This document shows positions 30,467-34,099 of a stretch of DNA of 34,112 nt, piece by piece. Origin of the DNA: Clostridia bacterium. Lineage in GTDB: Bacteria > Bacillota > Clostridia > Christensenellales > Borkfalkiaceae. Position 1 is the first letter of the stretch. Each line of letters opens with the position of its first letter. Position numbers and translations under genes: made by a program. The notes below the pieces were generated by a model. It did no database searches. It had not been told where the DNA came from and was given only the letters and a program-made list of their open reading frames with translations. The stretch lies in assembly GCA_017448355.1 (NCBI GenBank), contig JAFSLQ010000022.1:1-34112 (forward strand), in the 5' to 3' direction.

Positions 30467-31429
30467 ATGGAAAGAATAGCGGTATTAACGAGCGGCGGCG
30501 ACGCACCGGGGATGAACGCCTGCGTTAGGGCGGTTGTAAGAACTGCACTCAACAATCATATGGATATTTACGGAGTGGAACGCGGTTATGCGGGGCTTAT
30601 TAAGGGCGAAATAACCCGTCTCGGCACGCGTTCGGTTTCCGATATGATTCATAAGGGCGGCACGTTCTTAAAGACGGCGCGCTGCCCGGATTTTAAAGAC
30701 GTTAAAGTTCAGCAGATGGCGGTGGACGCGCTATCCGCCTACGGGATAGAAGGGCTTGTTGTTATCGGCGGTGACGGAACGTTCCGCGGCGCAAAAGACC
30801 TTTCAGAGAATTTCGGCGTTAAAGTCGTGGGAATACCTGGGACTATCGACAACGACCTTTCGTATACAGATTACACCGTTGGTTTCGATACGGCGGTAAA
30901 TACCGTGCTTTGGGCAATCAATAACCTTCGCGACACTATGCACTCGCACGACAGGGTTTGCCTTTTGGAAGTTATGGGGCGTCATTGCGGCGACATCGCG
31001 CTTTACGCGGGCGTTGCGGGCGGCGCAGAGTACGTTTTAGTTCCCGAAATTCCGTTTAATCTCGACGAAATCGCGTCGGCTATAAAGAAAAGTTACCTTC
31101 GCGGAAAGACTTCTAATATGATAATTTTGGCGGAAGGCGCGGGCAATCGCGACGAGATTGCGGCGTATATACAGGAAAAGAGCGGAATAAACGTTAAAGT
31201 TACCAACTTCGGATATATCCAGCGCGGCGGTTCGCCGAATATGGCGGACAGAATTTTGGCGGCAAGGTTCGGCTATCGCGCCGTGGAAATCTTGCGCGAC
31301 GACGGCGACAGCGCGGCAATCGGTATAAAGAACAACAAGGTTATAACCGTTCCGTTTTCGGAAGTCGCGAACGGTGATAAAAAATTCGACAAACAACTTT
31401 ACGATATCGCTCACGTGCTGAGTTTATAA
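30467..31429 (+). CDS. pfkA: ATP-dependent 6-phosphofructokinase
   Basis: A 320-residue, standard-length bacterial PfkA tetramer subunit that phosphorylates fructose 6-phosphate at the glycolytic commitment step. Motifs: LTSGGDAPGMNACVRAVVR at the N-terminus (phosphoryl-donor loop), VIGGDGTFRGA (Asp103 and Gly104 in the ATP-type form), GIPGTIDNDLSYTDYTVGFD with the catalytic Asp, MGRHCGDIAL, and the PEP/ADP effector-site Arg residues in KTARCP and SYLRGKTSN. Gly at the donor-determining positions predicts ATP specificity. It follows dnaE (common in Clostridia) and precedes the PPi-type enzyme. Confidence 0.96.
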   Translation: MERIAVLTSGGDAPGMNACVRAVVRTALNNHMDIYGVERGYAGLIKGEITRLGTRSVSDMIHKGGTFLKTARCPDFKDVKVQQMAVDALSAYGIEGLVVIGGDGTFRGAKDLSENFGVKVVGIPGTIDNDLSYTDYTVGFDTAVNTVLWAINNLRDTMHSHDRVCLLEVMGRHCGDIALYAGVAGGAEYVLVPEIPFNLDEIASAIKKSYLRGKTSNMIILAEGAGNRDEIAAYIQEKSGINVKVTNFGYIQRGGSPNMADRILAARFGYRAVEILRDDGDSAAIGIKNNKVITVPFSEVANGDKKFDKQLYDIAHVLSL

Positions 31430-31459: not shown

Positions 31460-32710
31460 ATGAAAGGATTAAAGGGCGCGCTTATTTTTGCGCAATCGGG
31501 CGGACCGACTTCGGTCATCAATTCATCGGCGGCTGGCGTATTTTTGGAAGGCTTGCACTCCGAGCAAATTACTGCGGTATACGGTGCGGCGCACGGTATT
31601 CGCGGCATACTCAACGAAGAAATGTACGATATAAGTAAAGAAGACGAAAAAGAACTTCTTTTACTTAAAAATACTCCTTCTTCGGCGATGGGTTCGGTAA
31701 GATATAAACTTAAAGATGCTGACGTTGACGATACCGATTATAAGAGACTTTTAGAAGTATTCAAAAAATACGATGTAAGATATTTCTTCTATAACGGCGG
31801 AAACGACAGTATGGATACTTGCAACAAAATAAGCAAGTATATGGCGAAATCTGGCTATGATATGAACGTAATCGGCGTTCCGAAGACCATCGATAACGAC
31901 CTTTTCGGTACTGACCATTGCCCGGGCTTTGCAAGCGCGGCGAAGTTTATCGCTACGACTATTATGGAAATCAATCTCGACGCAAAAGTTTACGATACGG
32001 GTATGATTTGCGTAATCGAAGCGATGGGCAGAAACGCGGGCTGGCTTACCGCTTCCGCGGCACTCGCTAACGCAAAGGGCTACGGCGCGGATTTAATCTA
32101 TCTTCCCGAAGTTGCTTTCGACGTAGATAAATTCGTAGAAGACGTCAAAGGTGTTCTTACTAAAAACAACAATAAGTGTATCGTATGTTTGTCCGAAGGT
32201 ATTCACGATAAAAACGGCACGCTTATCGGCGAAGTTTTAGGCAAGGCGGGCGCAAGGGACAGTTTCGGACACGCACAACTCGGCGGCGTCGCGGCAAACC
32301 TTGCTAATATCTTGAAGGAAAAGACGGGCGTAAAGACCCGCGCTATCGAACTTTCGCTTATGCAAAGATGCGCGGCGCATTGCGCAAGCAAGACCGATAT
32401 CGAAGAAACCTTCGAAGCGGGCAAAGCGGCAGTTCGCGCGGCTGTATCCGGCGAAACGGATAAAATGGTTTGCTACGCAAGAAAGGCAGGGGATAAATAC
32501 GAGTGCGAATATAAACTTTTACCCCTTGAACTTGCGGCAAATACCGAAAAGACTGTGCCCTTAGAATGGATAACGAATAACGGCACGGGCATTTCCGAAG
32601 AATTTGTTAAGTATGCGTTGCCGCTTATTCAGGGCGACCCCGAATGTCCTAAGGAAGACGGGCTTCCGAGATTTGCGCGCTTAAAGAAAGTCGCAGTCGA
32701 AAAAAGATAA
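31460..32710 (+). CDS. pfp: Diphosphate-type phosphofructokinase
   Basis: A 416-residue phosphofructokinase related to the PPi-dependent group. Motifs: FAQSGGPTSVINSSAAG at the N-terminus; YNGGNDSMDTC (111-121), with Asp116 replacing the Gly that marks ATP enzymes; VPKTIDNDL (140-148), with the Lys typical of PPi use; and MGRNAGWLTA. The donor pocket thus predicts pyrophosphate rather than ATP, and a reversible reaction. Asn115 takes the place of the first Asp of GGDD, a variation I cannot interpret alone. It starts 30 nt after pfkA, with AAGGAG 8 nt before the ATG, and ends with a long terminator. Confidence 0.9.
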   Translation: MKGLKGALIFAQSGGPTSVINSSAAGVFLEGLHSEQITAVYGAAHGIRGILNEEMYDISKEDEKELLLLKNTPSSAMGSVRYKLKDADVDDTDYKRLLEVFKKYDVRYFFYNGGNDSMDTCNKISKYMAKSGYDMNVIGVPKTIDNDLFGTDHCPGFASAAKFIATTIMEINLDAKVYDTGMICVIEAMGRNAGWLTASAALANAKGYGADLIYLPEVAFDVDKFVEDVKGVLTKNNNKCIVCLSEGIHDKNGTLIGEVLGKAGARDSFGHAQLGGVAANLANILKEKTGVKTRAIELSLMQRCAAHCASKTDIEETFEAGKAAVRAAVSGETDKMVCYARKAGDKYECEYKLLPLELAANTEKTVPLEWITNNGTGISEEFVKYALPLIQGDPECPKEDGLPRFARLKKVAVEKR

Positions 32711-32721
32711 AATCAACAATT

Positions 32722-32759
32722 AAAACCCTTTGCGGGAAAATATTTCCGCAAAGGGTTTT
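32722..32759 (+). terminator. Terminator after the PPi-type phosphofructokinase
   Basis: A 14-bp perfect stem (32722-32735 with 32746-32759), extended by three inner pairs, encloses a short A/T loop; the 3' arm ends in TTTT. The symmetrical A/T flanks could work on either strand. Confidence 0.92.
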
Positions 32760-32783
32760 ATGGTTTAAAAACTCGTTATTACG

Positions 32784-32813
32784 TTGACATAAAGATGTTA
32801 TTTGTGATAAAAT
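32784..32813 (+). promoter_or_regulatory. Strong promoter for the structured leader RNA
   Basis: Consensus TTGACA (32784-32789), an 18-nt spacer and TAAAAT (32808-32813) preceded by the extended -10 TG. Transcription should begin at about 32819-32821, exactly where the first RNA helix starts. Confidence 0.85.
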
Positions 32814-32817
32814 TGAG

Positions 32818-33010
32818 TTGCGACAAAATTTAATATCCGTAGATTAAATAATCTGCAATTATCAAACACATACTTCTCTCGGTAGAAGTGTGCGGTTTCG
32901 CATTACTATAAACGTTTGATAATTAGCGGGTATATAGTTTTGTCGCAAACAAGCGGGATTGTGCATTTTTACGGTGTCGTTCTCGTTTGAGAACGACATT
33001 TTTATTTTTT
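32818..33010 (+). ncRNA. Candidate structured cis-regulatory RNA or small RNA with terminator, class unknown
   Basis: Read directly: P1 TTGCGACAAAA (32818-32828) with TTTTGTCGCAA (32938-32948), 11 bp; P2 32833-32840 with 32926-32933, 8 bp with G-U pairs; P3 32841-32845 with 32850-32854, 5 bp, loop AAAT; P4 AATTATCAAAC (32857-32867) with GTTTGATAATT (32914-32924), 11 bp; P5 32869-32877 with 32884-32892, 9 bp. P2, P3 and P4 meet in a three-way junction with linkers of 0, 2 and 1 nt. About 21 nt (32893-32913) inside P4 stay largely unpaired. A terminator follows at 32975-33010. The 315-nt gap 32711-33025 contains no other gene. I found no match to known riboswitch cores (TPP, SAM, purine, lysine, glycine, FMN, cobalamin, c-di-GMP-I, ZTP, fluoride) or to T-box, tmRNA, SRP or RNase P motifs, working from memory. 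Confidence 0.65.
32975..33010 (+). terminator. Intrinsic terminator just upstream of the lipoprotein gene
   Basis: TGTCGTTCTC (32975-32984) pairs perfectly with GAGAACGACA (32989-32998) over a GTTT loop; TTTTTATTTTTT follows to 33010. The gene's AAAGGAG begins at 33011, so the gene can be expressed only by read-through or regulated antitermination. Confidence 0.92.
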
Positions 33011-33017
33011 AAAGGAG
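33011..33017 (+). promoter_or_regulatory. Ribosome-binding site that fixes the lipoprotein start
   Basis: AAAGGAG lies 8 nt before the ATG at 33026. The longer frame reaching a TTG at 32987 begins within the terminator hairpin and is rejected. Confidence 0.85.
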
Positions 33018-33025
33018 TACTTGTG

Positions 33026-34099
33026 ATGAAAAAACTTTTATTATTGTTAAGTTTGTGTGTAATGAGTGCATGTTGCGTTTTCGGGTTTAACGCCTGTGGA
33101 GATACAAATCCTTCGCATACGCACGAGTATACCGATATGGTTGTAGAACCGACTTGTACGAAAGACGGCTACGTTTTACATTTATGTTCTTGCGGCTATT
33201 ATTTTAAGGAAGATGTTGCCAAAGTTTCACACGATTATGAGTGGACTATAACGCAAGAGCCTACCGAAACGGAAGAAGGCGTTAACACGGGTGTTTGCAA
33301 ACTCTGCGGTGATATTATAACCGAAAATGTTCCCACTTTAAATCACGAACATAAGTACGTTATTTCTTTTGAAAAACCGACTTGTACCGAACAAGGTTAT
33401 ACCTTACATAAATGTGCTTGCGGAGATGAGTTTAAAGATGATTTTGTCAACGCGTTAGGTCATAATTGTACTGAAAGTTTAGTAGAACCTACTTGTGTCG
33501 GACAAGGATATACCGCATACGTTTGTTCAAGATGTGAAGAGATTTTTAAAGATGATTTTACAAATGCGACAGGTCATACTTATACTTACGTTGAAAACAG
33601 TTTTGATGATGCAAATATGACTGCTGAATTTAAATGTAGTAAGTGTGACAAAACGGTATCTAAATCGGTAGAATTTGTTAGCGAACACCTGGAAGGTGGT
33701 TATACTTCTTATATTGCAAAGATTTCTAACGGGATAGGCGGTATTCAGCCGGTAATGTTCAATATATATAACGAAAATTCGGGTTATCATTTAATCGGTA
33801 TTTATAACGGAACTCCGATTAGGGTTAAAGCCTACGATATTATGGATAACAATGTAGAAGAATATAATGCGGCGATTGACTACTTTTTTTATAATAGTAC
33901 TCTTCGTTGGAGCGAAGGTGCACCTGCCAACTGTTCGACTTATGGTATTGCAGTTTTTACTTGTACTGTATGTGATGAAAGGATTGTTATTGCGCTATCT
34001 GGCGAACACTTTGGTTTGGATGAACATCAGGTAAGGATTGTTGACGGGCATATAGAAGAATATTGTACAGATTGTGGACGTTGGATAAAAGTTTCATAA
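33026..34099 (+). CDS. Secreted lipoprotein-like protein with Cys/His repeats
   Basis: A complete 357-residue protein. It has an N-terminal signal (MKK then LLLLLSLCV) and a lipobox-like Cys at 16 (MSAC) or 24 (FNACGD), so a lipoprotein on the outer membrane face is likely. Residues 33-184 are four repeats of about 38 residues of the form EPTCTxxGYxxxxCxCG...F(K/D)DDF...GH, with CxC or CxxC pairs at 54/56, 91/94, 130/132, 167/170 and a half repeat at 204/207. The C-terminal part (about 220-357) has more CxxC pairs (TCTVCDE, CTDCGRW). Such repeats are common in surface proteins of gut Clostridia; function is unknown, and metal binding or disulphide stabilisation is inference. Codons are more A/T-ended (GAT, TGT, TAT) than in neighbouring genes. 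Confidence 0.85.
   Translation: MKKLLLLLSLCVMSACCVFGFNACGDTNPSHTHEYTDMVVEPTCTKDGYVLHLCSCGYYFKEDVAKVSHDYEWTITQEPTETEEGVNTGVCKLCGDIITENVPTLNHEHKYVISFEKPTCTEQGYTLHKCACGDEFKDDFVNALGHNCTESLVEPTCVGQGYTAYVCSRCEEIFKDDFTNATGHTYTYVENSFDDANMTAEFKCSKCDKTVSKSVEFVSEHLEGGYTSYIAKISNGIGGIQPVMFNIYNENSGYHLIGIYNGTPIRVKAYDIMDNNVEEYNAAIDYFFYNSTLRWSEGAPANCSTYGIAVFTCTVCDERIVIALSGEHFGLDEHQVRIVDGHIEEYCTDCGRWIKVS
33122..33679 (+). repeat. Four and a half tandem protein-level Cys/His repeats
   Basis: Repeat units span residues 33-69, 70-107, 109-146 and 147-184, with a half unit to about 218. Units 1, 3 and 4 are closest (EPTCTKDGYVLHLCSCG, KPTCTEQGYTLHKCACG, EPTCVGQGYTAYVCSRC); unit 2 is diverged (EPTETEEGVNTGVCKLCG), having lost the first Cys. 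DNA identity between units is moderate, so the duplication is not recent. Confidence 0.8.

Follow-up and report, generated by a model that had tools for sequence, protein, structure and literature searches.

A predicted transcription-attenuating leader RNA, most likely a riboswitch, upstream of surface-protein genes in Clostridia

The stretch of Clostridia DNA analysed here (the window, 34,112 nt) contains a structured RNA which is probably a cis-acting transcription-attenuation leader belonging to a widespread, uncatalogued RNA family of the class Clostridia, and whose most likely nature is that of a riboswitch. That it works as an attenuator, whatever it responds to, appears highly probable from the sequence comparison. 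Comparison between copies supports the helices, the position of the promoter, the terminator, the antiterminator and the gene context, and less firmly a pseudoknot, and the conserved unit runs from the promoter through the P1-P2-P3 fold and the tail to the intrinsic terminator, the ribosome site and the gene.

Architecture of the element in the window

The segment 32818-32948 folds at -46.2 kcal/mol compared to a mean of -21.19 (sd 3.18) for 200 dinucleotide shuffles, none of which equals the native energy (z -7.86, 0/200), and the opposite strand of the same segment is also structured, to a weaker degree (z -5.56). Together with the homologues and the lack of an Rfam match to the element described below, this fold bears out the original prediction that a structured RNA of no described class lies behind a promoter and 5' of a lipoprotein gene. 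The RNA is real and larger than first drawn, since the extent 32818-32948 given to it leaves out a tail (32949-32972), a terminator hairpin (32973-33000), a ribosome-binding site and the lipoprotein gene, all of which continue the feature.

All parts lie on the forward strand. The predicted promoter (32784-32813) combines a -35 box TTGACA (32784-32789) with a -10 box TAAAAT (32808-32813) that is preceded by TG, at a spacer of 18, and the predicted transcript start falls on the 5' strand of the closing helix P1 (32818-32830), a strand supported by the minimum-energy fold and by covariation in the family. Its 3' strand (32936-32948) is supported by fold, covariation and the conserved position of the promoter, and the helix, with strands TTGCGACAAAA/TTTTGTCGCAA, is present in the computed fold. 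The conserved loop letters TTAATA, partly at 32829-32834, and the 5' side of a short second helix, P1b, occupy 32831-32838; in the minimum-energy fold P1b of the window copy has 6 bp (32833-32838/32928-32933). An extra hairpin at 32839-32856, with 7 bp in the same fold, creates a three-way junction and is followed by the 5' strand of P2 (32857-32867), which forms a perfect 11-bp arm with the 3' strand at 32914-32924, the latter supported by fold and covariation. Between the two strands of P2 lie the P3 hairpin (32869-32892; 9 bp, 32869-32877/32884-32892), with a conserved GGTA in its loop, and a further loop with the conserved letters TTTCGCATTAC (32893-32913). The candidate switching tail CAAGCGGGATTGTGCATTTTTAC (32949-32972) comes after P1 and leads into the predicted intrinsic terminator (32973-33009), which consists of the hairpin 32973-33000 and a T tract. 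A ribosome-binding site recognised by its sequence, AAAGGAG (33011-33017), then precedes the putatively regulated gene (33026-34099), which encodes a predicted lipoprotein of 357 aa with no Pfam match.

All five helices originally drawn are thus present, with sizes that differ in two cases, as the second helix has 6 bp rather than 8 and the small hairpin 7 bp rather than 5 in the minimum-energy fold. The three-way junction, which had been taken to define the architecture, does not carry over to the family and is rejected as its common form: among the other eight sequences of alignment A1, the columns of the hairpin are empty in four, hold two letters in two and hold different letters in another two. 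The hairpin is therefore an insertion local to the window copy, and the family is better described by a rod of P1, P2 and P3, interrupted by internal loops, together with a 3' strand capable of forming a pseudoknot.

The upstream neighbour is a phosphofructokinase gene (31460-32710), followed by an 18-nt inverted repeat at 32721-32760. Because that gene ends before the inverted repeat, the element appears to open a transcription unit of its own. Two phosphofructokinase genes (30467-31429 and 31460-32710) are adjacent here, and a gene for DNA polymerase III alpha precedes them.

Distribution and covariation of the family

A DNA search recovered two further copies in the genome of the window at 74-75% identity and matches in 8 of 61 genomes among its relatives, its own included. 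Within the genus, a first covariance model, built from nine copies and ending at the terminator start, marked 47 places (E <= 1e-3), which are spread over 20 of 44 genomes. With a second model of 41 sequences, copies were found at the level of the order (E <= 1e-4) in 65 of 396 genomes and 25 of 142 genera, at the level of the class in 61 of 391 genomes and 38 of 222 genera, and at the level of the phylum in 1 of 398 genomes, namely the genome of the window itself; this last search serves to control for false hits rather than to survey the phylum, because at least 14 of the other genomes belong to the same class. A third model of 104 sequences matched 61 of 291 genomes of the class (E <= 1e-6). 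The genome tallies from searches of more than 40 genomes are lower bounds owing to stricter filters and the few candidates scored per genome. The third model counts 9 copies in the genome of the window (E <= 1e-3), and six high-copy genomes hold 20, 14, 20, 11, 19 and 13 copies when more candidates are scored (E <= 1e-4). The set used at the level of the order comprises 97 distinct elements condensed from 112 hits, after two antisense hits had been dropped.

In the named genome collection, 39 stretches were picked up by pattern, and the model confirmed 38 of them, all in metagenome-assembled genomes with Clostridia or Clostridiales in the title, and many of these come from the guts of ruminants or deer; the sole stretch titled Bacilli (L104) was not confirmed. 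Plasmids gave no match to the one class-level copy used as query. Two unannotated scaffolds from human faeces that are labelled bacteriophage, MT835845.1 (L150) and MT837627.1 (L151), each hold a class-level copy, and three pattern scans of viral contigs yielded a single stretch (L122), where the model detects no copy. Nine distinct tandem pairs with a spacing below 500 nt were observed (L065, L069, L078, L124, L125, L146, L173, L178 and L181), each unit having its own terminator and the pair being followed by one gene or none. Three copies in the genome of the window (G000) lie about 1.2 kb or less from a contig end (end of C15, end of C34 and start of C21), as do several copies in other draft genomes, a placement that may reflect strain-variable or repeated surface genes.

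Among 104 copies, each of the 32 base pairs of the rod (12 in P1, 11 in P2 and 9 in P3) shows at least one change on both sides, so that the proposed comparison of homologues came out in favour of the helices. Pairing is kept in 95.6% of cells overall (P1 97.3%, P2 95.2%, P3 93.7%). The covariation score reaches 0.748, compared to 0.229 for shuffles (0/500 as high) and no more than 0.103 when the partners are slid, on an alignment that was fitted to the same structure, and at some pairs the two-sided changes are few, with one sequence each for columns 6-212 and 70-126. Outside the helices, the conserved letters are TTAATA after P1, GGTA in the P3 loop and, among order-level copies, TTTTCGCATTACATA after P3; the tail conserves CAAGCG followed by TGCATTTTTAC, and within P1 the letters GCGAC/GTCGC are conserved.

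Taken alone, neither the promoter-like site of the window (1 found vs 1.2 expected from shuffles) nor its terminator (1 found vs 0.5 expected) stands out from chance, and the weight of both therefore rests on the family, with mononucleotide shuffles as controls. A promoter matching at least 9 of 12 letters is found in 112 of 125 distinct upstream stretches vs 64 of 625 shuffles, and in 103 of the 112 promoter-bearing stretches the end of the -10 box lies 4 nt upstream of model position 1; the spacer is 17 in 107 of these 112 and 18 in the window copy. On the other side, a terminator with a score of at least 22 follows 87 of the 97 order-level copies vs 4 of 485 shuffles, with the models ending where the terminator starts, and a score of at least 20 is attained by 99 of 104 copies in the combined set and by 29 of 29 class-level copies. 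The ten order-level copies below the threshold include L002, a copy in the genome of the window without a T tract, and some of the ten have hairpins that the scoring rule rejected for mismatches.

These patterns bear on the suggestion that the element is a palindromic repeat or a miniature mobile element without any function as RNA. The perfect 11-bp inverted ends and the dispersed copies would suit such an origin, but the letters differ between copies while the pairing is kept, the promoter spacing is fixed, and the genome of the window has no long near-identical copies (best 75% identity), which leaves this explanation hardly credible.

A tail with two possible partners

The tail could be shared between two pairings. 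In the window, 32950-32958 can pair with 32981-32989, which would form an antiterminator, and 32953-32961 (GCGGGAUUG) can pair with 32893-32901 (CGGUUUCGC) in the loop after P3, which would form a pseudoknot. For the antiterminator, pairing of the tail with the 5' arm and loop of the terminator is far stronger within copies than after partners are permuted between copies (duplex energy -12.86 vs -8.72, z -15.5, 0/20000, n=99), while the control pairing with the 3' arm of the terminator gives no signal (z +2.2). The difference persists with 39 representatives that are at least 30% apart (z -8.9, 0/20000; controls -0.3 and -1.7). For the pseudoknot, the unreduced sets give z -7.8 with a reversed-loop control of -4.4 and z -5.8 with a control of -2.2, and 42 representatives at least 30% apart give z -7.9 (0/20000; controls -1.3 and -0.5). 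In these redundancy-reduced tests, as in those with a longer loop, the loop was extended by 3 nt, and it had been reset by hand for L033, L045 and L047 beforehand. Under a stricter reduction the pseudoknot, with 9 representatives, is equalled in 62 of 20000 permutations and the antiterminator, with 8, in 8 of 20000; with 4 representatives only, neither is significant.

Swapping strands between nearest neighbours controls for relatedness. In such swaps the antiterminator is better in 21 cases and worse in 9 (p 0.021), a modest result compared to the terminator as positive control (30 better, 2 worse), and for the pseudoknot no signal is seen, with 17 better against 18 worse, and 16 against 16 when the longer loop is used. 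Column-by-column covariation of the pseudoknot on alignment A9 is uninformative, because the loop after P3 is not aligned by that helix there. Single copies are telling: CUCUCG faces CGAGAG in L044, GUUCGC faces GCGAAC in L035, and CCUUAUUUGC faces GCGGUAAGG in L043. An altered loop, in which UUCCC faces GGGAA, was noticed ahead of small proteins at L033:1053-1457 and L045:1088-1456. Since permutations favour both pairings and swaps lend the pseudoknot no signal, the terminator/antiterminator switch is well supported by the comparison and the pseudoknot is likely, not proven. When the window transcript is folded up to 32989 it is predicted to adopt the antiterminator (-60.7 kcal/mol), and at full length the terminator (-65.9 kcal/mol), as expected of a switch that would be poised during transcription; such folds cannot show pseudoknots.

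A plausible course of events, the order of which is inferred, would begin with transcription starting at P1. P1, P2 and P3 would fold into the rod, whose loops would present the conserved letters, and the tail emerging after P1 would serve as the strand for which two partners compete. A bound signal may hold the pseudoknot, so that the tail would be occupied by the loop after P3, the terminator hairpin would be free to form and the surface-protein gene would be off. With no signal, the tail would pair with the 5' arm of the terminator, polymerase would read on and the protein would be made. This OFF direction is favoured with fair confidence.

The same terminator/antiterminator switch could be operated by a single RNA-binding protein, which would hold either the P1-P3 fold or the pseudoknot in place. 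With up to 20 similar leaders per genome, the regulon is large, as would suit one trans-acting protein, and the P1 letters GCGAC/GTCGC could be its recognition site, but the conserved letters are scattered over the internal loops and the pseudoknot strand, a pattern more usual for an aptamer than for a protein site. A protein-dependent attenuator is accordingly considered rather unlikely, and the balance tips somewhat towards a sensor of a small molecule.

Downstream genes, relation to known RNAs and candidate signals

By a simple first-ORF rule, an ORF lies behind 92 of the 97 order-level copies, and many of these ORFs start just past the terminator with a GGAG-like site. Four of the five copies without an ORF lie within 175 nt of a sequence end, and the fifth, L047 in the genome of the window, has none on its strand. 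The original prediction had left the choice between a ligand-sensing leader and a stand-alone small RNA; because a switching tail and a terminator, both missed at the time, are present, the cis-acting leader is the favoured half of it. A free RNA about 190 nt long, equipped with a promoter and terminator of its own and lying beside surface genes by chance or gene transfer, would fit the close framing of the RNA by these two signals, the nine tandem pairs with a terminator per unit and the lack of a gene behind L047. It would have no need of an antiterminator pairing that co-varies with the terminator, however, and the nearly constant ORF, the closeness of most exceptions to a sequence end and the start of many ORFs just past the terminator also speak against it, so that it is deemed improbable.

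For the leader reading, the nature of the downstream genes is of interest, and these encode mostly lipoproteins and BspA-type leucine-rich-repeat proteins. A lipobox is present in 57 of 90 distinct first ORFs vs 0 of 23 other genes of the window, and a lipobox or signal-like segment in 67 of 90 vs 9 of 23. Pfam domains in 78 downstream proteins include LRR_5 (BspA-type) in 33, Flg_new in 12 and TIR in 4; these 78 were scanned out of 92 ORFs, leaving out the second entries of tandem pairs, very short ORFs, some of the longest and near-duplicates. The link to LRR_5 may be partly a matter of base rate, because the domain is abundant in carriers generally, with 70 matches in the genome of the window (G000). 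At the level of the class, the proteins encoded behind copies include ones of the LRR_5, Flg_new, M23 peptidase, GDSL lipase and copper-amine-oxidase-N kinds as well as small proteins with no Pfam match. Among the small proteins, recurring ones with starts resembling MNIKVELLK, MADYKRLYF or ITGI-LTPGN were observed behind L123, L126, L127, L129, L132, L137, L140, L159 and L161, and have no Pfam match where scanned. Other copies precede a Rho_N protein (L033), which the protein behind L045 resembles by eye, and a YspA SLOG protein. The genes behind the copies at L085, L106, L093 and L103 encode TIR-domain proteins, and by eye the N-termini of three of these proteins resemble zinc ribbons. Proteins with a TIR domain often act in immunity or signalling. 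PHROGs gave a match for 1 of 9 downstream proteins.

Rfam 15 (4227 families) gave no hit at the gathering cut-off in the window, and in 20 class-level loci it gave 7 hits, all of them tRNA genes and none on the element; permissive scans of 32700-33060, L002 and L003 returned only matches far below gathering scores. The search of Rfam that had been proposed as a check thus leaves the novelty of the element standing, within the window and these loci. The models of the c-di-GMP-I and -II riboswitches and of the T-box likewise found no match in the window and the 20 class-level loci, and the genes downstream encode surface proteins.

ZTP, fluoride and preQ1 riboswitches are pseudoknotted and terminate transcription. 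The element resembles them in its leader position, conserved loops and intrinsic terminator and in the 3' strand that would be common to pseudoknot and expression platform; unlike them, it is a three-helix rod with no Rfam match and a fixed distance to the promoter, which occurs in up to 20 copies per genome on surface-protein genes. Such a functional resemblance would suit a divergent form of a riboswitch class already in Rfam, but the element has no gathering-score match in the window or the 20 class-level loci and the permissive scans gave none that convinces, which makes this explanation very improbable. As in transcription-attenuating riboswitches, a conserved structured leader is found upstream of genes, and by sequence the terminator and antiterminator appear mutually exclusive, an agreement that is weaker in the nearest-neighbour swaps. 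A riboswitch-like attenuator is hence a known kind of regulator, and it is the family as such that appears new.

With c-di-GMP riboswitches of Clostridia the element has in common that surface proteins would be controlled from the leader, and it differs from them in having no Rfam match and in carriers that mostly lack a GGDEF match. Within the genus, 6 of 44 genomes have a GGDEF match, 4 of them among the 20 carriers, and no match was found in the genome of the window (G000), single absences being weak in draft genomes. Because of this missing match, c-di-GMP is unlikely as the signal and is disfavoured. The arrangement has a parallel in Bacillus thuringiensis, where a c-di-GMP riboswitch lies 5' of the collagen-binding surface protein gene cbpA (PMC7423583).

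In being an uncatalogued structured RNA of bacterial intergenic regions, the element resembles the candidates from human microbiomes, thousands of which are unnamed (PMC8040213), and those of structured-RNA surveys of 26 and 50 genomes (PMC8632094; PMC11109978). None named in these three sources is placed upstream of Clostridia lipoprotein or leucine-rich-repeat genes, and their supplementary tables may hold an unnamed match. The open-licence literature, supplementary files aside, yielded no description of the element, and prior publication is possible.

In its fullest form, the proposal is that of a new Clostridia riboswitch class of up to about 20 copies per genome, in which one small-molecule signal other than c-di-GMP would set the production of BspA-type and lipoprotein surface proteins, and this is given an even chance. 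If this holds, a single RNA class absent from the catalogue would control a large part of the surface proteins in many uncultured gut Clostridia, bacteria about whose regulation next to nothing is known. For a riboswitch, the copy number per genome is high, and the common regulon of surface adhesin-like, TIR-domain and small uncharacterised proteins suggests one signal, perhaps a new messenger in genomes without GGDEF enzymes. The element offers a defined RNA for ligand screening, and its model could be submitted to Rfam.
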